DNA from: Bacteroidia bacterium 43-41
Lineage (GTDB): Bacteria; Bacteroidota; Bacteroidia; Bacteroidales; Dysgonomonadaceae
Assembly (NCBI GenBank): GCA_001898165.1
Contig: MKTD01000041.1
Coordinates: forward strand, 1 to 64,000
Length of the DNA: 64,000 bases
Direction: 5' to 3'
Program-made: the position numbers and the translations under genes
Notes under the pieces: generated by a model
The model's database searches: none
What the model was told of the DNA's origin: nothing
Seen by the model: the letters and a program-made list of their open reading frames with translations, nothing else
Shown: piece after piece, positions 9,568-64,000 of the stretch
How positions within the stretch are numbered: the stretch's first letter is position 1
Layout: every line of letters begins with the position of its first letter

Positions 9568-10761
9568 ATGAGAATAGCTTTTTATTTAGCTTTCGATCTA
9601 AATCCCCAAAATGGAGGTATCGAAAGAGTCACCAATATATTGACAAAAGAATTTGTTGCAGCAGGACATCAGGTATATTTCGTGTCCTATATTTCTGAAC
9701 CGGAAGCAGAACATACTGCTCTTGCGGCAGACAGGCTTGTTTTACCTGATAGGAAGAAATTGTGCTCACGTGAAAATCAAACTAAATTTACCGATTTCAT
9801 AAATAAAAACAGTGTAGATATAATTGTAGCTCAACATTCTCACGATATGGAATTTGCCACACTTCCATTTTTGGTTAAACAAAATACAAACGTAAAAATA
9901 CTGTACGTTTTTCACCCAACACCATTTATTCAATCTTTATCAATAGCAGACACCTCTTATCCTATTCTTAAGAGTGAAAGAACATTGCCGAGGCTATGGA
10001 GAAGGATGGGAAGGATCATCCTGAAAAGACAAAAGCAAAAGTCGAAAAACAACAAAATGGGAAAGCATTTAAAACGACTTCACGAAATGGGTGACTATAT
10101 TCTTGTTTCATCGGAAAAATACATAGATGGTATTCTTAAAATATCGGGCATACAGTCTCGGGAAAAACTTTTTGCCATTGCCAATCCCAATACTTACAGA
10201 GAGGAAGATATCCAAACCGCACAAAAAGAAAATATCCTTATTTTTGTTGGACGTTTATCGGAAGAGAAACATCCCGAAAAAATAATGTTAATATGGAAGC
10301 ATATCCAAGACAGGTTCCCGCAATGGAATTTAAAAATCTTGGGAGAGGGTAAGCTAAAACATGAGTTGGAAGAATTACATAAACAACTGAAATTAGAACG
10401 TTGTTCCATAGAAGGGCGGCAAGAACCAACTCCCTATTATGCCAAAGCAAAAATACTACTTTTGGCCAGCGATTTTGAAGGATTTCCCATGAGTATAACC
10501 GAAGCCATGCAACACGGCGTTATTCCGGTAGCTTTCAATTCATTTGAAGCCTTGTCCGGCATCATAGAAGAAAACGTTACCGGAATAAGTGTTACACCAT
10601 ACAGTTTACAGGAATATGAGGAAAAACTAGCTGCGTTAATGAATAACGAAGAGAAGATAGCAAAAATGTCAGTAGCTACAAGAAAAAGTATTTCAAGGTT
10701 TTCCGCTCCTGATATTGCAGTTGAATGGATAGGACTGTTCAGAAAATTAGGTGTTCAATAA
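9568..10761 (+). CDS. Glycosyltransferase family 4
   Basis: A 397-aa GT-B retaining glycosyltransferase. The N-terminal acceptor domain starts MRIAFYLAFDLNPQNGGIERVTNIL. The donor domain shows ILIFVGRLSEEKHPEK, the GT4 hallmark, and FEGFPMSITEAMQHGVIPVAF with the E-x7-E type donor site. No membrane segment. It opens a five-gene glycan cluster and probably adds one sugar to a cell-surface polysaccharide or LPS on the cytoplasmic side. Donor and acceptor cannot be told. The next gene starts 22 bp downstream. Confidence 0.9.
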   Translation: MRIAFYLAFDLNPQNGGIERVTNILTKEFVAAGHQVYFVSYISEPEAEHTALAADRLVLPDRKKLCSRENQTKFTDFINKNSVDIIVAQHSHDMEFATLPFLVKQNTNVKILYVFHPTPFIQSLSIADTSYPILKSERTLPRLWRRMGRIILKRQKQKSKNNKMGKHLKRLHEMGDYILVSSEKYIDGILKISGIQSREKLFAIANPNTYREEDIQTAQKENILIFVGRLSEEKHPEKIMLIWKHIQDRFPQWNLKILGEGKLKHELEELHKQLKLERCSIEGRQEPTPYYAKAKILLLASDFEGFPMSITEAMQHGVIPVAFNSFEALSGIIEENVTGISVTPYSLQEYEEKLAALMNNEEKIAKMSVATRKSISRFSAPDIAVEWIGLFRKLGVQ

Positions 10762-38555: not shown

Positions 38556-41015
38556 TTAAATTCCTTTTTTCGCTCTTCTTATCATTTCGGCATCGGTAAA
38601 ATTCTCACCGGGCATATACCCTTTAAGCGGCTGAATACGTTCGTGTATCATATCGATAAACCAGCTTGCCTGCGGGAAAAACGCACTTTCAAGTTCGTGC
38701 GCCGGGGTGATCCAGTTGCGTGAACCGAGCACGGCAACGGGTGCATCCAGGTAGTCGAAGCAAAGCGATCCGATAGTTGCCGTCAGGTCGTTCAGGAACG
38801 AACCACGAGCGGTAGCATCGCCGGCAACGATGATTTTACCAGTTTTCTTCACCGAGGCAACCACCTTTTCATAATTGAACGGCACCAGCGAACGGGCATC
38901 GATCACTTCGGCACTCATGCCGTATGCTGACTCCAACTCTTTTGCCGCCTGAAGTGCGGGATAGAGCGTGTGCCCGATGGTCAGGAACGTAATGTCTCCT
39001 CCTTCTTTTTTCACGTCGGGCTCACCAATGGGTATTTCGTAATATCCCGCAGGAACGCCGCCCTCGTGAAATTGCTCACCGATATCATAAATACGCTGGC
39101 TCTCAAAAAAGATTACCGGATCGGTCCCTTGCAGCGCGGCATTCATCAGCCCCTTGGCATCATAAGGCGTCACGGGGAAGCAAACTTTAATGCCCGGAAT
39201 ATGGGCCACAAGCGAAGTCCAGTCCTGCGAATGCTGTGCACCGTATTTCGACCCGACCGAAACACGAAGTACAACCGGCATCTTCAGCACATTCCCGCTC
39301 ATGGCCTGCCATTTGGGCAGTTGATTGAACACTTCGTCTCCGCACCGCCCCAGAAAATCGCAGTACATGATCTCGGGTATAACCCTCCCGCCACACATGG
39401 CGTAACCAATGGCCGTTCCCACGATAGAGGCTTCGGATATGGGTGAATTGAACAGGCGGTGATACGGCAAGGCTTCCGTCATTCCGCCGTAAACGGCAAA
39501 AGCGCCTCCCCAATCGCGGTTCTCTTCACCGTAAGCCACCAGGGATGCATCTTTATAGAATCGGTCCATGATGGCTTCGAAAATAGCGTCGCGCAGCTGG
39601 AACTGTTTCATCTTGCTGAACGGCTTGCCCTCCGCATCGAATGCGAAACGCTCTTTACCGGCTATTTTCTTTACGCGGGAGTTCTCTTCCAACGGCATCA
39701 GCACCTCAGGTTTTGCATCGGAGAAACTCTCCACTGAACCGTTCGAGAACATCATTTCGCCAATCCGATCGGGGTTTTTCATCCGGGGTGAGATTTCATC
39801 GTCAGTCGATTTCAACAACATCTCATGAATGAGCATTTTTATATCATCCCAAATAGCGTCCAATCCATTTTGATCCGTCACACCCGCTTCCAACAATTGT
39901 TTTCCGAACGATGCGATACAATCTTGGTTCTCCCAGGCTTCCACTTCTTCTTTCGTACGATAGGAGGAGGCATCCGACGGAGAGTGCCCGCTGTACCGAT
40001 AAGTCAGGACGTCCAGCAGTACCGGCCCGTTTTTCTCTTCAATCACTTTGCGTTTGCGTTTGTAAGCATCAATGACTGCCAACGGATTGTAACCGTCCAC
40101 ACGTTCGGCGTGCATTTGCTCTTCGTTCACACCCGCGCCTATGCGGGCTGCAATGCCGTAGCCCATGGTTTCGCCGCAAGTTTGGCCGCCCATCCCGTAC
40201 TGGTTGTTCATGATGTTGATAATCACCGGAAGCCCGCCTTTCATATCTCCATCCCAGAGTTCTTTGAACTGGTCCATCGCAGCGAACGTGATTCCTTCCC
40301 AAACGGGCCCGCACGCCATCGAGGCATCACCTATATTGGCAACTACCAATCCGGGTTTACGGTTGATCTTTTTGTACAACGCGGCACCCACGGCAATATC
40401 TCCCGAACCGCCCACGATGGCATTGTTGGGATATACTCCGAAAGGGGTGAAAAAGGCATGCATCGAACCGCCAAGCCCCCTGTTAAATCCGGTTTCCCGG
40501 GCAAATATTTCCGCCAATGTTCCATAAACCAAAAAACGGCGGGCGAGCTCCTTAGTGGTTCCGTTAAAATCTTTTTGAACGATTTTCAGCACCGAACCAT
40601 CGAAAAAGCCCTGCATTATTTTCATCAGTTCGTCATCGGTAAGCTTATGGATGGCAGACATCCCTTTGGCCAGGATCTCGCCGTGTGAACGGTGGCTCCC
40701 GAAAATAAAATCATCGACCGTAAGTGTCCAGGCCATCCCCACAGCCGCCGATTCCTGTCCGATGGACAAGTGAGCCGGACCGGGGTGATTGTACGCCACG
40801 CCGTTGTACTCACCTTTGGTTTTGATAAGATTAAGCATGGTTTCGAACTCACGGATGAGCGCCATGTCGTGATAAATGGCTTTTAGTTCGTCGTCGGTAA
40901 AATTTTCACGTTCTTCTTTTACCGTCTTTTGGTACTGATTGACAGGAATGGGCTGAAATTCCACAAAGCCCGGTTTGCGGGCTTCAGCCGGATCGATAAA
41001 TTGAATTTTTGGCAT
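38556..41015 (-). CDS. 2-oxoacid dehydrogenase E1, alpha-beta fusion
   Basis: An 819-aa thiamine-diphosphate enzyme combining the alpha chain (~45-430) and beta chain (~470-819), usually two proteins. The alpha half has the ThDP motif from GDASMACGPVWEG to IINIMNNQYG and the conserved loop YRYSGHSPSDASSYRT. The beta half has GEENRDWGGAF, in the position of the usual EDVxxxGG, and ASIVGTAIGYAMCGGRVIPEIMYCDF. The substrate could be pyruvate, a branched 2-oxoacid or acetoin-like; I cannot decide. It lies with E2, E3 and a lipoate ligase, so a complete complex is encoded. Confidence 0.88.
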   Translation of the reverse strand: MPKIQFIDPAEARKPGFVEFQPIPVNQYQKTVKEERENFTDDELKAIYHDMALIREFETMLNLIKTKGEYNGVAYNHPGPAHLSIGQESAAVGMAWTLTVDDFIFGSHRSHGEILAKGMSAIHKLTDDELMKIMQGFFDGSVLKIVQKDFNGTTKELARRFLVYGTLAEIFARETGFNRGLGGSMHAFFTPFGVYPNNAIVGGSGDIAVGAALYKKINRKPGLVVANIGDASMACGPVWEGITFAAMDQFKELWDGDMKGGLPVIINIMNNQYGMGGQTCGETMGYGIAARIGAGVNEEQMHAERVDGYNPLAVIDAYKRKRKVIEEKNGPVLLDVLTYRYSGHSPSDASSYRTKEEVEAWENQDCIASFGKQLLEAGVTDQNGLDAIWDDIKMLIHEMLLKSTDDEISPRMKNPDRIGEMMFSNGSVESFSDAKPEVLMPLEENSRVKKIAGKERFAFDAEGKPFSKMKQFQLRDAIFEAIMDRFYKDASLVAYGEENRDWGGAFAVYGGMTEALPYHRLFNSPISEASIVGTAIGYAMCGGRVIPEIMYCDFLGRCGDEVFNQLPKWQAMSGNVLKMPVVLRVSVGSKYGAQHSQDWTSLVAHIPGIKVCFPVTPYDAKGLMNAALQGTDPVIFFESQRIYDIGEQFHEGGVPAGYYEIPIGEPDVKKEGGDITFLTIGHTLYPALQAAKELESAYGMSAEVIDARSLVPFNYEKVVASVKKTGKIIVAGDATARGSFLNDLTATIGSLCFDYLDAPVAVLGSRNWITPAHELESAFFPQASWFIDMIHERIQPLKGYMPGENFTDAEMIRRAKKGI

Positions 41016-41040: not shown

Positions 41041-42396
41041 CTAAAACTCAAACACCACTTCTTTGAATATTTCACTTACTGTCGGGTGCGGAAAAACAAC
41101 CTCTTTCATCTCTTCCAGCGTCATTTCCTGCTCTATGGCCATACAAGCGCCGTAAATTATTTCACTGCCCGGATTCCCTAACATGTGAACACCGATAACT
41201 TCGCCGTATTTTTCACCGACAAGAACCTTGCACAATCCGGTGCCGCCTTCGTTTTCAGCGACAAAACGCCCGGCGTATGCCATGGAAAGCTTGGCTACCT
41301 TGTAAGCAATTCCTTTTGCTTTTGCACTCTCTTCGGTTTCACCCACAGCGGCAATCTCAGGATTGATGTACACCACTCCCGGAATAGCGTTGTAGCGCAT
41401 AATGTCGTTTTTCCCCGTGAGGTTGTTGACCACCACTTCGCCTTCGCGGCTGGCTGTATGTGCCAAAAGTGAAAATCCGGTCACGTCGCCGGCGGCAAAA
41501 ACATGGGGAACGTTGGTGCGCATTTTTTCATCTACCTTGATGCCCCCTCTATCCAGTTCCACGTTCAGGTTTTCGAGGCCAAAGCCTTTGGTCACCGCAC
41601 GGCGTCCAACGCTCAACAGGATCTTGTCACCTTCCACGGTATGTGTTTCGCCGTCTTTTTCGAAAATCACCTTATTTCCGTCCACCTGTACGACCTTGGC
41701 ATCAAGATAAAAGTCAATGCCTTTTTTAGTGAAAATATCGCGCGACATGGCTGAAATTTCGAAATCGTTATTTCCCAAAATCTCGGGAAGCATTTCTATC
41801 ACGGTTACTTTGGATCCTAAACTGTTGTAAAAACTGGCAAACTCCATTCCGATAACTCCGCCTCCGATGACAACAAGTCTTTTGGGCTGTTCTTTCAAGT
41901 CGAGAATTTCACGGTTAGTCAGGATAACATCACCGGCCTCTTTTAATCCGGGAATGGGCGGAACCGATGCTTCGGATCCGGTGCAGATCAACAGGTTGTT
42001 TCCCGGATAACTCTCACCGTTGCAGACCACCTCAATGCCGTTGCCGCTCCTGCCCGTGATGTGAGCTTCGCCTTCAACAACCGTAACCTGGTTGGTCTTC
42101 ATCTTGGTTTTCACACCGGCAACTAATTTACGCACTATTTTATTTTTGCGGGATACAATCTTATCGTATTCAAAACGGACATTCTCCGCAAAAACACCAT
42201 ACTTATCGCCATGAAGCGCATTTTCATAGGTTTTAGCACTATAGAGCATGGTTTTGGTCGGGATACAGCCTTCGTTAAGACAAACGCCGCCCAGGTTTTT
42301 TTTCTCAAACAAGACCACCTTCAGCCCTTTATGACCTGCACGTTCGGCAGCCACATAACCGGCCGGTCCACCGCCGATGATTAATAAGTCGTACAT
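41041..42396 (-). CDS. lpdA: Dihydrolipoyl dehydrogenase (E3)
   Basis: A 451-aa flavoprotein disulfide reductase that reoxidises the lipoyl arm and makes NADH. FAD motif GGGPAGYVAA is at the N-terminus, the redox disulfide in GGVCLNEGCIPTK, NAD motif VVIGGGVIGMEFASFYNSLG near 175, and the catalytic His in VVFPHPTVSEIF near the C-terminus. All key residues are present and length is slightly short but normal for Bacteroidetes. It lies between the E2 and E1 genes. Confidence 0.96.
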   Translation of the reverse strand: MYDLLIIGGGPAGYVAAERAGHKGLKVVLFEKKNLGGVCLNEGCIPTKTMLYSAKTYENALHGDKYGVFAENVRFEYDKIVSRKNKIVRKLVAGVKTKMKTNQVTVVEGEAHITGRSGNGIEVVCNGESYPGNNLLICTGSEASVPPIPGLKEAGDVILTNREILDLKEQPKRLVVIGGGVIGMEFASFYNSLGSKVTVIEMLPEILGNNDFEISAMSRDIFTKKGIDFYLDAKVVQVDGNKVIFEKDGETHTVEGDKILLSVGRRAVTKGFGLENLNVELDRGGIKVDEKMRTNVPHVFAAGDVTGFSLLAHTASREGEVVVNNLTGKNDIMRYNAIPGVVYINPEIAAVGETEESAKAKGIAYKVAKLSMAYAGRFVAENEGGTGLCKVLVGEKYGEVIGVHMLGNPGSEIIYGACMAIEQEMTLEEMKEVVFPHPTVSEIFKEVVFEF

Positions 42397-42414: not shown

Positions 42415-43752
42415 TTAATAATCGATTTCGAGATTTTCTATTTCTATGGCAATTTGCTTCAGGAAGCGCGTTGCTTCCCCGCCATCAAGCGCCCTGTGAT
42501 CGTAGGTAAGGCTCAGCCCGATATACGGGACAAAAGCATAAACGCCATCGCCCAGATCTTTCGGGCGCGGTACAATCGTGTTCACTCCCAATATGGCAGA
42601 CTGCGGCAGATTGATAACGGGCGTAAAGATTTCCACCCCGTAATTTCCCAAATTGGACACGGTGAACGAGCCGGCTTCCGCAGAAAGGATATCCGGATTC
42701 ACACTACCTGTCCTGCAAGCGTTTGCGACTTCTTTCAGTTGGTTTGAAAGTCCGGCGATCGACAAATCATCGGCATTTTTCACTACCGGGACCATCAGTC
42801 CGCGATCGGTGTCCACCGCCAATCCGAGATGTACTTTATTAAAAATACGCATGGTGTCGCCCAGGAGTTGCGAATTGACTTGGGGAAATTTCTTCAGCGC
42901 TTTGATCACCGCATAACAGACCATATCGTTGAGCGTGATGTTTATGGAGAGCTTCCCGGCTTCTACGGCAGATTTCACTTGTTTCCGAAGTTCAAGGATC
43001 CGGCGTGCATCGGCGCCCAGATGGTGTGTAAGCTGCGCTGAATTTTGCAGCGAAGCGTGCATTGCCCGAGCAATGAGTTTCCGCATGTTGGAAAGCTTCC
43101 TGTCTTCGTAATCGTTAGCGTAAACATAATTTGACGATGGTGCCAAATCGGCAGAACGTGCTGTTCCCGCTAATCCGGTACCCGATGATTGCGGTTGCAG
43201 ATTCTCCAGCGAGGCCATCTTTTTTGCCAACGGTGTCATTTTAGGCCTGTTTTCCAAAGCCGCTTTTACATCTTTTTCGATAACGCGCCCCTGTGGCCCC
43301 GACCCGCTCACGCCCGCGGTATCAATCGCCTCTTTTGTCGCAAGGTTTTTGGCGCGGGGGGAAATGAAACGGGGTCCGGGGTCCGGGTTCCGGGTTGCGG
43401 GTTCCAGAATGTGAGTTGCGGATTCCGGAGTACGGGACGCGAGTTCCGGAGTACGGGGCGCGGGTGCGGGGTGCGGCTCCTGACTGCCTTGCAGCAAAGC
43501 CGAATAATTCTCTCCGGGCTCACCGATAACCATCATATTTTCCAGCACGGGAACCTCGTCACCTTCCTTGTAAAAACATTCGAGCACCACTCCGTCCGCC
43601 GGAGATTCCTCCTCGAAAGAGGCCTTGTCTGTTTCGTAAGAAAAGAGAACGTCGCCTTTCTTCACGGAATCCCCCTTTTTCTTGTTTATGGAGCCTATTA
43701 TACAACTTTCAACCGACTGCCCCTGCTTGGGCATAATTATTACTACTGCCAT
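42415..43752 (-). CDS. Dihydrolipoamide acyltransferase (E2)
   Basis: 445 aa. One lipoyl domain (1-~80) with the modified Lys 43 in YETDKASF. A Pro/Ala/Thr-rich hinge (93-128) is encoded by heptanucleotide repeats. The E1/E3-binding domain follows (~129-166, ISPRAKNLATKEAIDTAGVSGSGPQGRVIEKDV). The catalytic domain (~215-445) ends with LTYDHRALDGGEATRFL, containing the catalytic His and Asp. It is the first gene of the leftward operon. The acyl group is unknown; acetyl is the default guess. Confidence 0.92.
   Translation of the reverse strand: MAVVIIMPKQGQSVESCIIGSINKKKGDSVKKGDVLFSYETDKASFEEESPADGVVLECFYKEGDEVPVLENMMVIGEPGENYSALLQGSQEPHPAPAPRTPELASRTPESATHILEPATRNPDPGPRFISPRAKNLATKEAIDTAGVSGSGPQGRVIEKDVKAALENRPKMTPLAKKMASLENLQPQSSGTGLAGTARSADLAPSSNYVYANDYEDRKLSNMRKLIARAMHASLQNSAQLTHHLGADARRILELRKQVKSAVEAGKLSINITLNDMVCYAVIKALKKFPQVNSQLLGDTMRIFNKVHLGLAVDTDRGLMVPVVKNADDLSIAGLSNQLKEVANACRTGSVNPDILSAEAGSFTVSNLGNYGVEIFTPVINLPQSAILGVNTIVPRPKDLGDGVYAFVPYIGLSLTYDHRALDGGEATRFLKQIAIEIENLEIDY
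43371..43475. repeat. 15 tandem heptanucleotide repeats encoding the E2 hinge
   Basis: On the plus strand this stretch divides without a gap into 15 seven-base units such as GGGGTCC, GGGTTCC, GGGTTGC, GGATTCC and GGAGTAC (two identical copies of the last). The E2 gene reads through them on the minus strand. Three units (21 bp, 7 codons) are the smallest in-frame step. The encoded residues 93-128 are Pro, Arg, Thr, Glu and Ala rich. Confidence 0.85.
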
Positions 43753-56796: not shown

Positions 56797-57706
56797 TTAG
56801 TTCTTCCAATCGTACCATACTGGAATTGAAAGTTTCAATCCTTATTTTCGTGGAGATAGTTCTGGAAGTATGATTAATTGTGCTTTTGGGATATGATATG
56901 CCTGTTTCAATCCTTATTTTCGTGGAGATAGTTCTGGAAGAGTATATATATTTAATACAACAACTATATATTTAGTGTTTCAATCCTTATTTTCGTGGAG
57001 ATAGTTCTGGAAGTCCATTTTTGATTACGCCTATACTTACGTCCATTCGTTTCAATCCTTATTTTCGTGGAGATAGTTCTGGAAGTAGGAGAGGATCCCC
57101 AATTTATATTTACAAACGATTGTTTCAATCCTTATTTTCGTGGAGATAGTTCTGGAAGTGAAACAGGATCAGCAGCCGCACCATTGATGTCTGGTTTCAA
57201 TCCTTATTTTCGTGGAGATAGTTCTGGAAGTTTTATTTTACACTTATACGTGTCGTGCGCAACTTTGTTTCAATCCTTATTTTCGTGGAGATAGTTCTGG
57301 AAGCTTTCAGCCCGTCAACCACTTCATGGAGTGAACAGAAGTTTCAATCCTTATTTTCGTGGAGATAGTTCTGGAAGAAGCCAAGAAGCATCCTTCGCAA
57401 AATCTCACCTCGGTTTCAATCCTTATTTTCGTGGAGATAGTTCTGGAAGACCTTTTCCGTGGCTCTATCAAAATTTCAAAGAACTAGTTTCAATCCTTAT
57501 TTTCGTGGAGATAGTTCTGGAAGATAGCTACCTGATAATTAGTATGTCCGACACTGTGAGTTTCAATCCTTATTTTCGTGGAGATAGTTCTGGAAGTTTG
57601 ATGTTTATTATGGATCAGCCAAAACGACAGAATGTTTCAATCCTTATTTTCGTGGAGATAGTTCTGGAAGAACTCGGGGCTGATGACGCTTTGAAAGCTC
57701 AAATAA

Positions 57707-57743
57707 GTTTCAATCCTTATTTTCGTGGAGATAGTACTGGAAG
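57707..57743 (-). repeat. Variant CRISPR repeat with one substitution
   Basis: The 13th intact repeat reads GATAGTACTGG where all others have GATAGTTCTGG. It is an interior single-base change near the left, presumably older, end. Confidence 0.85.
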
Positions 57744-60700
57744 AGGGAATACCAGAATCGGAATGGGATGAAAAGAGTAGTTTCAATCCTTATTTTCGTG
57801 GAGATAGTTCTGGAAGTCGAGCTTGAGGGATACTTTTTCAAAACCTTCATAGTTTCAATCCTTATTTTCGTGGAGATAGTTCTGGAAGCTCTTGATACGG
57901 TCGTAACTTCATCTATAATTTTGTGTTTCAATCCTTATTTTCGTGGAGATAGTTCTGGAAGAGATGGAAGAAAGAAGCGGACGAGCAGTCGCTGCATGTT
58001 TCAATCCTTATTTTCGTGGAGATAGTTCTGGAAGTATTCCAAAACGACCCGTCGGCAAAACAAGAATTTTGTTTCAATCCTTATTTTCGTGGAGATAGTT
58101 CTGGAAGCTTCCTCGCTGATGTCCTTGATTTCGCTTTGGTTCTGTTTCAATCCTTATTTTCGTGGAGATAGTTCTGGAAGTGCGCTTTCCAGCGTTCCTC
58201 TTTTGGCGTGGTAAGAGTTTCAATCCTTATTTTCGTGGAGATAGTTCTGGAAGACAGAGGTGGAAATACATGCAAGATATAGAATTCAGTTTCAATCCTT
58301 ATTTTCGTGGAGATAGTTCTGGAAGATATCGTCAAGTTTCTTTTCTAAGTTTCGCATAAAGTTTCAATCCTTATTTTCGTGGAGATAGTTCTGGAAGAGT
58401 ATGTCCAGTGGTGGATAAGCAATCAATTTTAAAACGTTTCAATCCTTATTTTCGTGGAGATAGTTCTGGAAGTGCGGCACTTGCATAGAACGAAAAGAAG
58501 CATTTTAGTTTCAATCCTTATTTTCGTGGAGATAGTTCTGGAAGTGGAAATAAAGGTACCCGTACACCCGCGGCGGTTAAGTTTCAATCCTTATTTTCGT
58601 GGAGATAGTTCTGGAAGTTTTCTTGAGTTTTTTAGTTGTTTTATTAATACCCGTTTCAATCCTTATTTTCGTGGAGATAGTTCTGGAAGACATCACTCAC
58701 TCCCTCTTTTATTTCGTTTTTGCTAGTTTCAATCCTTATTTTCGTGGAGATAGTTCTGGAAGTTCAACGTGTTTGCTCATGCAGATTTCTTCAATATGTT
58801 TCAATCCTTATTTTCGTGGAGATAGTTCTGGAAGTTCAACGTGTTTGCTCATGCAGATTTCTTCAATATGTTTCAATCCTTATTTTCGTGGAGATAGTTC
58901 TGGAAGTTCAACGTATTTGCTCATGCAGATTTCTTCAATATGTTTCAATCCTTATTTTCGTGGAGATAGTTCTGGAAGACTGTTTCGGAAAATCACAAGT
59001 CAATGAAGATTTAGTTTCAATCCTTATTTTCGTGGAGATAGTTCTGGAAGTGGGAAGTCTTGACTTGCAGGTATAGTGCAGTATAAGTTTCAATCCTTAT
59101 TTTCGTGGAGATAGTTCTGGAAGATGTACGTCAGGAGTTGGCGGAAACTCAACAGCAAAGTTTCAATCCTTATTTTCGTGGAGATAGTTCTGGAAGAAAC
59201 AACCTCGTCATCTTTTATGTCATTTGCCTTAAGTTTCAATCCTTATTTTCGTGGAGATAGTTCTGGAAGTTGTTGCAATTCTATTGCTTCAAGGTTTTGA
59301 GCGTGGTTTCAATCCTTATTTTCGTGGAGATAGTTCTGGAAGCAAATCGGATGGCAGGTAGTATGGTGTCGTGGAATAGTTTCAATCCTTATTTTCGTGG
59401 AGATAGTTCTGGAAGTTGGATAGTGCCGATAAGCCATTTAACCCTATTTTGGTTTCAATCCTTATTTTCGTGGAGATAGTTCTGGAAGCTTTTTTGGGTT
59501 TCAGCTCCTTACCCCTGCCCTTCAGTTTCAATCCTTATTTTCGTGGAGATAGTTCTGGAAGAATGTTATTAACGATTGACCTGTACATCGTGAGGTTTGT
59601 TTCAATCCTTATTTTCGTGGAGATAGTTCTGGAAGAGCCTAATTAAAGCAATAACTTCGCCCTGCCTATCCGTTTCAATCCTTATTTTCGTGGAGATAGT
59701 TCTGGAAGTAACACCAAGTCACCGCTTGCCAAATTGGGATGGGGTTTCAATCCTTATTTTCGTGGAGATAGTTCTGGAAGAATATTTCTAATTTTATTTT
59801 ACCGGTATCAGGGTGGTTTCAATCCTTATTTTCGTGGAGATAGTTCTGGAAGAATTCACGCCCTTCCCGTTCGCCTTTTATTAATTTGTTTCAATCCTTA
59901 TTTTCGTGGAGATAGTTCTGGAAGAACTTTGTTTTTTATGATTAATCTTTCAAGGCTTTTGTTTCAATCCTTATTTTCGTGGAGATAGTTCTGGAAGGTT
60001 GCGGCGCCTTATCAAGCCACCTCGCCGCAACCGGTTTCAATCCTTATTTTCGTGGAGATAGTTCTGGAAGATTTCTTTTTCATATCTTTATTTTTTAATT
60101 TGTTTTGTTTCAATCCTTATTTTCGTGGAGATAGTTCTGGAAGAAACTTAACGCCGTTCAATCGTGCCTTGTAATCGAGTTTCAATCCTTATTTTCGTGG
60201 AGATAGTTCTGGAAGAGCAGAAAGGAATATTACCTCTATTACGTCATTTTGTTTCAATCCTTATTTTCGTGGAGATAGTTCTGGAAGCTCATTCCTTTAC
60301 CTTCTTTTAATATGTCTTTCACGGTTTCAATCCTTATTTTCGTGGAGATAGTTCTGGAAGCGCAATGGGTGAAAGATATTGCGATGCAATTTTTTGGTTT
60401 CAATCCTTATTTTCGTGGAGATAGTTCTGGAAGAACTTTGTTTTTTATGATTAATCTTTCAAGGCTTTTGTTTCAATCCTTATTTTCGTGGAGATAGTTC
60501 TGGAAGTGTTGTTTTCCGCAATCTTCCGCTCCTTAATCTCGTGTTTCAATCCTTATTTTCGTGGAGATAGTTCTGGAAGGCTTGACTTGAAAGTTAGAGA
60601 ATTCGAGTTTAATTCGTTTCAATCCTTATTTTCGTGGAGATAGTTCTGGAAGTAGTATGCCATTACGTGTTTGCCAAATATTTTCAGTGTTTCAATCCTT

Positions 60701-63700
60701 ATTTTCGTGGAGATAGTTCTGGAAGCTGGAACTATTTGTATGGAAAATAATTGCAACTTTTGTTTCAATCCTTATTTTCGTGGAGATAGTTCTGGAAGTT
60801 GAAAAGTGGGCGATGAAAAAATTCACGGAAAGGGAGTTTCAATCCTTATTTTCGTGGAGATAGTTCTGGAAGAGTGCGGTTCTCGATATCCTTGATTCCG
60901 GAGCATATGTTTCAATCCTTATTTTCGTGGAGATAGTTCTGGAAGTACTTCCGATATCTTTTCGAGTATTTTCATTTTCTAGTTTCAATCCTTATTTTCG
61001 TGGAGATAGTTCTGGAAGTGCAAAGCCTTGACCCGCTTTGCAGGGTATTATGCGTTTCAATCCTTATTTTCGTGGAGATAGTTCTGGAAGAACTATATTT
61101 TTTCACCTCAACCGTGTTTTTTGCTAGTTTCAATCCTTATTTTCGTGGAGATAGTTCTGGAAGATATCTGCTTGGGTTTTTTATTCATTTCAATAACGGT
61201 TTCAATCCTTATTTTCGTGGAGATAGTTCTGGAAGTTTCTGTAAGTTTCTGATTCTGTATGGAACATAATGTTTCAATCCTTATTTTCGTGGAGATAGTT
61301 CTGGAAGTTTCTTTTTCATATCTTTATTTTTTAATTTTTTTTGTTTCAATCCTTATTTTCGTGGAGATAGTTCTGGAAGTACTTGATATGATGACAAAGA
61401 GCGGTGTCAAGTCAAGTTTCAATCCTTATTTTCGTGGAGATAGTTCTGGAAGAGGGATAGAGTTAGATAAGGATTATTACGAACAAGCGTTTCAATCCTT
61501 ATTTTCGTGGAGATAGTTCTGGAAGGGTTTCTTTACATACTAACAAGTCTATTGACATGGCGTTTCAATCCTTATTTTCGTGGAGATAGTTCTGGAAGAA
61601 GGTAATTGAATATTATTACATTTCTCACACATATCGTTTCAATCCTTATTTTCGTGGAGATAGTTCTGGAAGCTCTTCATCACATATTTTCTTTATATCC
61701 GAAAAAGGGTTTCAATCCTTATTTTCGTGGAGATAGTTCTGGAAGCGTTCTACAATTACGATACCAGCTATCCATTTGAAGTTTCAATCCTTATTTTCGT
61801 GGAGATAGTTCTGGAAGTACAACTTGAACATCAAGCTGCCCCGTGTTCAAATGTTTCAATCCTTATTTTCGTGGAGATAGTTCTGGAAGATGATATTTCA
61901 AAATTATATATCTACGATTCAACATGTTTCAATCCTTATTTTCGTGGAGATAGTTCTGGAAGACATTATTTTGATATACCAAAATTAATTGTGTTAATGT
62001 TTCAATCCTTATTTTCGTGGAGATAGTTCTGGAAGAAAGAGAGCCGTGAATATCATAATATTCATGATAAGTTTCAATCCTTATTTTCGTGGAGATAGTT
62101 CTGGAAGTCCCCCTTTTATCTCGTTCTTTGAATAGATACTGAGTTTCAATCCTTATTTTCGTGGAGATAGTTCTGGAAGCGATTTGATAACAAAGGTCAA
62201 AAACCTTGTTCAAGAGTTTCAATCCTTATTTTCGTGGAGATAGTTCTGGAAGAAACAACCTTTCGCATACTTGTTATGCGCCGGGATGTTTCAATCCTTA
62301 TTTTCGTGGAGATAGTTCTGGAAGCGATATTCGGATGTGCGGTGTCGTAGGCGTTGTTCCGTTTCAATCCTTATTTTCGTGGAGATAGTTCTGGAAGATA
62401 TCTTGTACACCCCAGCGTTTGCCCCGGCGCTCGGTTTCAATCCTTATTTTCGTGGAGATAGTTCTGGAAGAGTGCCAGCAAATCACCAGTTTGTCGTGCA
62501 ATTCATGGTTTCAATCCTTATTTTCGTGGAGATAGTTCTGGAAGATTATCCAAATCATCAACATCCCAATCACTCTGTAAGTTTCAATCCTTATTTTCGT
62601 GGAGATAGTTCTGGAAGTTCAGTTCAGGGCGTCGCAAAACATAGAGTATTAGGTTTCAATCCTTATTTTCGTGGAGATAGTTCTGGAAGCTGCTCTGCAT
62701 TATTTTTTACCCAAACATCCCCGCGTTTCAATCCTTATTTTCGTGGAGATAGTTCTGGAAGAAATGATATTTGATTATAGCTATTTCGTTGAGAAGAGTT
62801 TCAATCCTTATTTTCGTGGAGATAGTTCTGGAAGTTTGCGATAAGTGAAGAATTAAGGACACAATTAATGTTTCAATCCTTATTTTCGTGGAGATAGTTC
62901 TGGAAGTGGCAAGAGTACTTTTGCCAATACCAGGCGATCCAGTTTCAATCCTTATTTTCGTGGAGATAGTTCTGGAAGATGGCGATGGTGGTGTCAGCCC
63001 GAAATTGACACTCTGGTTTCAATCCTTATTTTCGTGGAGATAGTTCTGGAAGAAATCGGATGGCAGGTAGTATGGTGTCGTGGAGTAGTTTCAATCCTTA
63101 TTTTCGTGGAGATAGTTCTGGAAGTTGTGAACAATGATGAAAAGAATATTATGGATAAGTTTCAATCCTTATTTTCGTGGAGATAGTTCTGGAAGAACTT
63201 TGTTTTTTATGATTAATCTTTCAAGGCTTTTGTTTCAATCCTTATTTTCGTGGAGATAGTTCTGGAAGAGTGAATTTCTATGAGAAACTAATCCACCTAT
63301 TAAAGTTTCAATCCTTATTTTCGTGGAGATAGTTCTGGAAGCTGAATTGCTTTGTTGGCATCTTCAATAGCAGTCTGGTTTCAATCCTTATTTTCGTGGA
63401 GATAGTTCTGGAAGAAGCGTGATGTTATTCACCACATTAAGCCTGTAGGGTTTCAATCCTTATTTTCGTGGAGATAGTTCTGGAAGCATGCCTGATATTT
63501 TACGGTCATTCTCGCCAACCTGTTTCAATCCTTATTTTCGTGGAGATAGTTCTGGAAGTTAGACTGTCTGCGTGACAAAGCTTAGGATTGTGCGTTTCAA
63601 TCCTTATTTTCGTGGAGATAGTTCTGGAAGCATCACTTGAACTCAAATTGAGCGTTGTAGTGTAATGTTTCAATCCTTATTTTCGTGGAGATAGTTCTGG

Positions 63701-64000
63701 AAGCGAGATGTCCACATAAGCGGTCAGACGCTTCGGTGGTTTCAATCCTTATTTTCGTGGAGATAGTTCTGGAAGTATGTTTCCGTTCAGCACGGAGAAA
63801 CACCTTCCTGTGTTTCAATCCTTATTTTCGTGGAGATAGTTCTGGAAGTTTCAACGTGTTTCGAAAATATCTGATCCATAGAAGGTTTCAATCCTTATTT
63901 TCGTGGAGATAGTTCTGGAAGCGATTGCGAGTTGAGGCGGCCACCGCTCGGGACATAGTTTCAATCCTTATTTTCGTGGAGATAGTTCTGGAAGTAATTC

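Follow-up and report, generated by a model that had tools for sequence, protein, structure and literature searches.

Tandem repeats of seven and eight base pairs in the hinge linker of Bacteroidales E2 genes

The E2 gene and the heptads of its linker

We analysed a stretch of 64,000 nucleotides (the window) from genome G000, which comprises 3.6 Mb in 80 contigs. On its reverse strand it carries a cluster of E1, E3 and E2 genes, and a tandem repeat lies within the E2 gene:

42415–43752, reverse strand: E2 dihydrolipoyl acyltransferase, predicted PDH-type, 445 residues (Pfam; best sequence matches among solved structures are PDH E2)
43369–43524, reverse strand: linker between the lipoyl and E3-binding domains, residues 77–128 (span between Pfam domain edges; AlphaFold pLDDT <50 at residues 90–126)
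43371–43475, reverse strand: degenerate heptad array, GGAACCC type on the coding strand, residues 93–128 (lag-7 match 0.62, z ∼7 against shuffles; TRF)
43370–43405, reverse strand: purest part of the array, 5.1 copies of a GGAACCC-type heptad (TRF period 7, 89% matches)
43423–43462, reverse strand: in-frame 21-bp duplication (three heptads), 1.9 copies, peptide RTPELAS/RTPESAT (TRF period 21, 94% matches; translation)
43454–43476: third TRF piece of the array (period 7, 3.4 copies, 82% matches, 11% indels)
41041–42396, reverse strand: E3 dihydrolipoamide dehydrogenase of the same cluster (Pfam Pyr_redox_2, Pyr_redox_dim)
38556–41015, reverse strand: E1 of the same cluster, alpha- and beta-type domains in a single 819-residue chain (Pfam E1_dh, Transket_pyr, Transketolase_C)

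The E2 open reading frame has the domain order of a PDH-type E2, with a lipoyl domain (residues 5–76, PF00364), an E3-binding domain (129–163, PF02817) and a catalytic domain (213–441, PF00198), all above the Pfam cut-off, and it clusters with E1 and E3 on one strand, as a PDH-type E2 should. The best sequence matches among solved structures predict pyruvate/acetyl as the substrate, and a fold search confirmed the E2 fold and gave nothing further. The nearest named relatives of the protein come from MAGs titled Porphyromonadaceae, Bacteroidales, Bacteroidetes and Proteiniphilum. The hinge linkers of PDH E2 proteins are Pro/Ala-rich and flexible and join the lipoyl and E3-binding domains. In an AlphaFold model from an alignment of 30 E2s (mean pLDDT 71, a model of moderate quality) residues 90–126 of the linker have pLDDT <50, and this stretch is predicted to be disordered.

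The original prediction had described fifteen heptads at 43371–43475. The 7-bp periodicity is real: self-match over this interval was 0.62 at lag 7, 0.54 at lag 14, 0.67 at lag 21 and 0.61 at lag 28. The lag-7 value was the highest of all 105-bp windows starting between positions 1 and 56700, a range that excludes the CRISPR array (mean 0.255, SD 0.048), and it exceeded by ∼7 SD what dinucleotide shuffling of these 105 bases gave (0.33 ± 0.04, maximum 0.47, n = 2000). The units are nevertheless degenerate (the sixth reads AGAATGT and the final two GGGTGCG), TRF divides them into three pieces, one of them of period 21, and no perfect period-7 tract exceeds 17 nt, or 2.4 units. The heptads do not coincide exactly with the linker, as had been thought, since they encode residues 93–128, that is 36 of the 52 residues (two thirds) between the Pfam edges. 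TAACTGA is absent from the list of units, and the array is thus not a TAACTGA repeat. Two further repeats were seen in the window: a small AAAAGAC-type heptad array at 10024–10052 (4.3 copies, 73% matches), which resembles intergenic heptads of the same genome, and a long CRISPR-like array at 56832–63996 with a repeat of ∼36–37 bp (GTTTCAATCCTTATTTTCGTGGAGATAGTTCTGGAA), running almost to the end of the window.

Arrays in the linkers of other Bacteroidales

We compared the linker with those of related E2 genes. Ten genomes of the genus were searched, and nine, counting the window's own, contained a full-length E2 orthologue (G006 had distant paralogs only); together with the best 80 of 127 named loci they gave 91 linkers, or 86 after the removal of five duplicates. 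Arrays were called by a fixed self-match score with a threshold of ≥15, and genes by a greedy longest-ORF rule. All 91 linkers were open in frame, and 83 of them were 48–63 residues long. Their residues are not conserved between species, so that the comparison of unit number and sequence among orthologs proposed in the original prediction did not turn up shared residues devoid of heptads, the outcome that would have pointed to compositional bias.

Tandem arrays were present in 21 of the 86 linkers drawn from these best 80 named loci and the genus, about a quarter, and absent from the other 65. The 24 arrays comprised 11 of period 7, 10 of period 8 and one each of periods 9, 12 and 14; units of 7 or 8 bp occurred in 19 of the 86 linkers, one of them scored at period 14. 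Because the periods are mainly 7 or 8, these are mostly not codon-level repeats. Codon shuffles produced on average 0.07 array-bearing linkers (maximum 1 in 60 rounds) and dinucleotide shuffles 0.02 (60 rounds), compared with the 21 observed. Within the window's genus, the window, L007 and L009 passed the threshold and L003–L006, L008, L010 and L013 did not, while GGGTTCC-like words were retained in the linkers of L003 and L004. By our reading the arrays recur at two positions, one immediately ahead of the E3-binding domain and the other within the linker's first half. The octads of L074 and L101 are perfect. Other unusual linkers were noted in passing: that of L107 is 106 residues long with a 66-bp minisatellite in ∼2–3 copies, that of L040 has a palindromic GC-rich stretch (GACGTGGCGCGCCGCGTC, reverse strand) that is possibly another dispersed element, and G008 has two E2 gene copies (L003 and L012) with an identical linker.

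The arrays are concentrated in the linker. A scan of the best 80 of 127 named loci (534 kb, score ≥15) found 23 arrays in the linkers, which total 13.7 kb. Other coding DNA (468 kb) had 2 and intergenic DNA (52 kb) had 13, which makes the linker ∼400 times as dense in arrays as other coding DNA and ∼7 times as dense as intergenic DNA. In a sample of the window's own genome (375 kb, including window positions 1–56700), 43 kb of intergenic DNA contained 10 arrays, 8 of them of period 7, and 332 kb of called coding DNA contained three besides that of the E2 linker, two of which we read as ORF-extension artefacts. With these 8 arrays and 103 overlapping places that match AGAACAA or AGAACCA heptads (AGAACMA), 7-bp arrays in this genome are mainly intergenic. 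Arrays that appeared to lie inside other genes (L199, L163, L134, L128, L062 and L169) were rejected, as by our reading they sit in upstream extensions of over-long ORFs; there remained a 12-bp array in a 1040-residue ORF (L135) and one in a 232-residue, probably spurious ORF (L166). At 19 further loci with E2 paralogs no array was found inside the gene and one touched an ORF start, a limited control as many of the paralogs have no lipoyl domain in the chain and hence not this linker.

Array presence has been gained or lost repeatedly. On a tree of 86 rows built without the linker columns (quick search, SH-aLRT support only), the presence of 7- or 8-bp arrays (19 of the 86 rows) required 12 changes, at least 9 of them forced by well-supported branches. 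Shuffled presence labels needed ∼19 changes, so that arrays also cluster by descent. In a group of five closely related rows with support 81, the position preceding the E3-binding domain is occupied by AAAACTC in L064, AAACACG in L069, AACCAATC in L074 and ATCATCAC in L068. In two other close species, G008 and G009, the linkers differ by one base, and both lie below the array threshold.

The linker arrays are also oriented. The A+C content of the coding strand was 0.52–0.88 in all 24 arrays and ≥0.59 in 23, whereas the families themselves occupy both genome strands (56 and 47 sites for AGAACMA in the window's own genome, 332 and 281 for the octad in G012). Because 10 of the 24 arrays are stop-free in the opposite orientation as well, avoidance of stop codons alone does not explain this bias; peptides encoded by the opposite strand are mostly more hydrophobic. 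Linker length was similar with and without arrays (medians of 57 and 55 residues), the array-bearing linkers being slightly longer (Mann–Whitney p 0.02). Identity between bases three units apart was 0.79 for linker heptads and 0.88 for linker octads compared with 0.71 and 0.76 in comparison arrays, which were few and mostly intergenic but included one E2 linker (L174). Identity kept at this distance is what in-frame duplication or a codon-level constraint would give. The expectation that the hinge changes length in steps of three units thus receives indirect support, from the lag-21 identity kept in linker heptads and from the 21-bp duplication visible in the window.

Sources of the repeat units in the genomes

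Can the units of the linker arrays be found elsewhere in the same genomes? For 11 of 13 linker units checked in their own genomes there were matches elsewhere, and for two, those of L064 and of the window, none or almost none; when the AGAACMA units are left out, 8 of 10 occur elsewhere. The counts that follow include the linker's own and overlapping sites and come from related genomes. Five genomes with the octad AACCAATC in the linker, those of L054, L052, L074, L066 and L062, had 401, 613, 18, 18 and 13 sites of it, while 21 other genomes had a median of 0, with none in 12 and a highest count of 73 in G022, whose linker has heptads (p 0.0008, the genomes being related). AAACACG had 37 sites in the genome of L069, the highest of 20 genomes, and also 9–27 sites in four genomes without it in the linker. 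GAAACTC had 12 sites in G002, the genome of L009, two of them in the linker, and AAAACTC had 11 in the genome of L056, of which ∼3 are probably the linker by position. In the genome of L064, AAAACTC was found only as two overlapping sites in one short place, probably the linker itself. For AGAACMA the genomes of L007, L041 and L086 gave 22, 25 and 22 sites. The control for this search was poor: reversing AGAACCA only yields a rotation of the same heptad, so that the reversed pattern carries no information for it.

The window differs from most of these cases. Its unit, GGAACCC, matched four places in its own genome with up to three mismatches; three of these lie in the E2 gene and the fourth is degenerate, so that the search for the window's heptads in intergenic DNA came back nearly empty (GGAACCC-type heptads matched 50 places in G010, to which L041 belongs). 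The idea that an intergenic repeat family was taken up as protein is therefore supported for the class of linkers, with 7- or 8-bp arrays in 19 of 86 and 11 of 13 units present elsewhere in the genome, and not for the window's unit. The window is one degenerate, GC-rich instance, and nothing in its genome stands out as the source of its unit. Dispersed elements of another kind also occur in linkers. REP-like palindromes of the CCCCCTTGGGGGATTTAGGGGG type are read as protein in the linkers of L041, L076 and L079, with 11, 4 and 15 matches in the respective genomes, linker copies included; in L041 two copies, both among the 11 matches, lie beside heptads.

Intergenic arrays often begin close to stop codons. 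Within 5 nt of a stop lay 13 of 27 arrays in the window's own genome (4.2 expected), 15 of 29 in G012 (1.1 expected) and 5 of 16 in G010 (1.6 expected), most of them picked by pattern. The excess was significant in these pattern-selected sets; in unselected stretches of the window's own genome the figure was 3 of 9 (1.4 expected), which is not clearly significant. Adjacency to called starts was raised in places (6 against 2.9 in the window's own genome, 7 against 1.1 in G012, 2 against 1.5 in G010), start calls being unreliable. In L116–L135, L152–L171, L172–L191 and L192–L211 the stop codon often shares bases with the first unit, and the orientation of the array to the gene depends on the family. 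The orientation of arrays in the window's own genome raised the idea of a Rho-loading or similar role of A/C-rich arrays after stops, which was dropped, since the octads at stops in G012 are oppositely oriented.

At two intergenic array sites of the window's own genome, relatives have short spacers without the array, and at one of these, the L153 site, G005 carries a stretch of 3–4 units. These intergenic sites suggest that arrays expand from seeds until they reach constrained sequence, and the E2 linker may be read in the same way. At the L153 site and in its relatives (L218–L227) the C-terminal tail of the upstream gene seems variable, with heptad-like words running into the stop codon. Some arrays of the window's own genome are composite, with several heptad families in an apparently similar order (L118:19565–19724, L128:15357–15472, L158:1921–1982 and L171:1969–2068), which suggests a dispersed composite element.

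Origin of the linker arrays and its meaning

Taken together, we favour, with a probability of roughly 0.78, the explanation that active short-repeat DNA repeatedly overwrites an E2 hinge under weak constraint, and that selection then sieves the outcome for frame, polarity and length. Short 7- or 8-bp arrays of lineage-specific sequence would arise and grow in Bacteroidales DNA under little constraint, mainly in intergenic spacers and often beginning within a few bases of a stop codon. The E2 linker would tolerate such arrays because any sequence of ∼50–60 residues that is open in frame, hydrophilic and unstructured may suffice as a hinge. Since neither 7 nor 8 shares a factor with 3, an array would be read in all three phases, giving a peptide repeat of 7 or 8 residues. 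Selection would retain the A/C-rich sense orientation, the frame and the approximate length, and afterwards point mutation would erode the array, as probably in the window, or a different array would replace it. We infer that the arrays are born by slippage-type expansion in situ, that they are nearly neutral and that the function of the hinge is unaffected. The higher density of arrays in linkers than in intergenic DNA is not predicted by pure tolerance. Further points against this explanation are the scarcity of their units in the genomes of the window and L064, the sites of AAACACG and of the octad in genomes whose linkers lack them, and the slightly greater length of array-bearing linkers.

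How else could such arrays have come about? Compositional or codon bias of a linker rich in Pro, Ala and Glu, with no repeat at the DNA level, has next to no chance of being the answer. Many linkers are indeed biased in composition and L071 carries a codon-type 12-bp Pro-Ala repeat, but most periods are 7 or 8 rather than multiples of 3, the residues are not common to orthologs, and we rejected this explanation on the codon shuffles, which gave 0.07 array-bearing linkers against 21. It is also very improbable that the linker is a phase-variable contingency locus, at which heptad slippage toggles E2 or adjusts the length of the hinge among the cells of a population. In its favour are a unit length coprime with three, the trace of an earlier 21-bp duplication and the lag-21 identity maintained in linker arrays; however, the original prediction that slippage could switch the gene off sits badly with a degenerate array whose longest perfect tract is 17 nt (2.4 units) rather than long and near-perfect, with the open frame of 91 of 91 linkers from the best 80 of 127 named loci and the genus, and with the linkers of G008 and G009, identical but for one base and below the array threshold. 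Moreover, contingency loci typically concern surface structures rather than central metabolic enzymes, and E2 is one of the latter.

More weight should be given to transfer, in which recombination, gene conversion or a mobile element would bring a copy of a REP-like element, or of an array from intergenic DNA, into the linker slot, although on balance we consider it unlikely as a replacement for expansion in situ. Most of the linker units tested match dispersed families, the heptads of L041 are accompanied by a dispersed palindrome in two copies, and close species carry different units in the slot immediately preceding the E3-binding domain, all of which transfer would accommodate. Against it, an unsystematic look revealed neither defined ends nor target duplications, the window's own genome offers almost no candidate donor for its unit, and the short heptad stretch of G005 at the L153 site is what growth in situ predicts. 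Finally, the repeats might be selected as such, for a structure in mRNA or DNA or for a translational pause between domains, with the linker as a preferred site. The array density above that of intergenic DNA and the two recurrent slots within the linker would fit, whereas units that range from GGAACCC to AACCAATC and ATCATCAC make a shared structure unlikely by sequence comparison and 65 of 86 linkers do without arrays, which leaves this possibility quite improbable.

Repeat DNA of similar kinds is known from other bacteria. In a survey of long simple repeats in prokaryotes (Mrazek et al. 2007, as cited in the available part of PMC4679880), heptanucleotides were the commonest category of long repeats in most genomes and polymerase slippage was proposed; there, repeat units in coding regions were likeliest to be multiples of three, while the E2 linkers contain in-frame 7- and 8-bp arrays recurrently in one housekeeping gene. 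The TAACTGA heptamers of Beggiatoaceae, Cyanobacteria and five Bacteroidetes, with two sets in a Paludibacter, are dispersed and mainly intergenic like the Bacteroidales arrays but, as far as the same part of PMC4679880 describes them, have one fixed unit and in the main genome lie mostly just upstream of start codons; the Bacteroidales arrays have many units, are often at stops and have a recurrent coding recipient. The GGGAATC and GGGGA(C/T)T heptamers of Xanthomonas and Nostoc are fixed, G-quadruplex-forming units, for which the available part of PMC4692102 describes no recurrent protein recipient, unlike the arrays of E2 linkers. The Rickettsia palindromic elements (Ogata et al. 2000, as cited in the available part of PMC10969869) resemble the linker arrays in that dispersed repeat DNA is read in frame as protein, in that case in metabolic genes. 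Those elements are ∼150 bp long and sit in many genes, whereas here tandem 7- or 8-bp arrays occupy one hinge with repeated gain and loss, and L041, L076 and L079 have REP-like palindromes in addition. Compared with the typical PDH E2 hinge, the flexible linker between the lipoyl and E3-binding domains is the same and the difference is its DNA origin in non-triplet microsatellites. A literature search covering few subscription papers returned nothing on microsatellites of the E2 linker or on these Bacteroidales units, and no description of the abundant intergenic heptad and octad arrays of Bacteroidales; one repeat-unit string occurred in an unrelated plant paper.

More tentatively, and with somewhat less than even confidence, the E2 linker may serve as a protein-coding sink for, and a readable record of, the intergenic repeat activity of its genome. 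In each genome the microsatellite or REP-like family that is active would keep renewing the hinge, with selection holding only length, frame and polarity and with length adjusted in steps of 21 or 24 bp. The 19 further E2-paralog loci have no array in the gene, so that not every E2 is such a sink, although many of these paralogs lack a lipoyl domain in the chain and with it this linker.

Housekeeping genes are expected to be cleared of microsatellites whose units are not triplets, and yet the E2 hinge appears to have been rewritten repeatedly by arrays of 7 and 8 bp. The hinge may thus be viewed as a natural experiment on what a flexible linker needs, namely length and polarity over sequence, and it would illustrate a path from non-coding repeats to protein sequence. 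The intergenic heptad and octad arrays of Bacteroidales form an abundant class whose origin and adjacency to stop codons are open to study.
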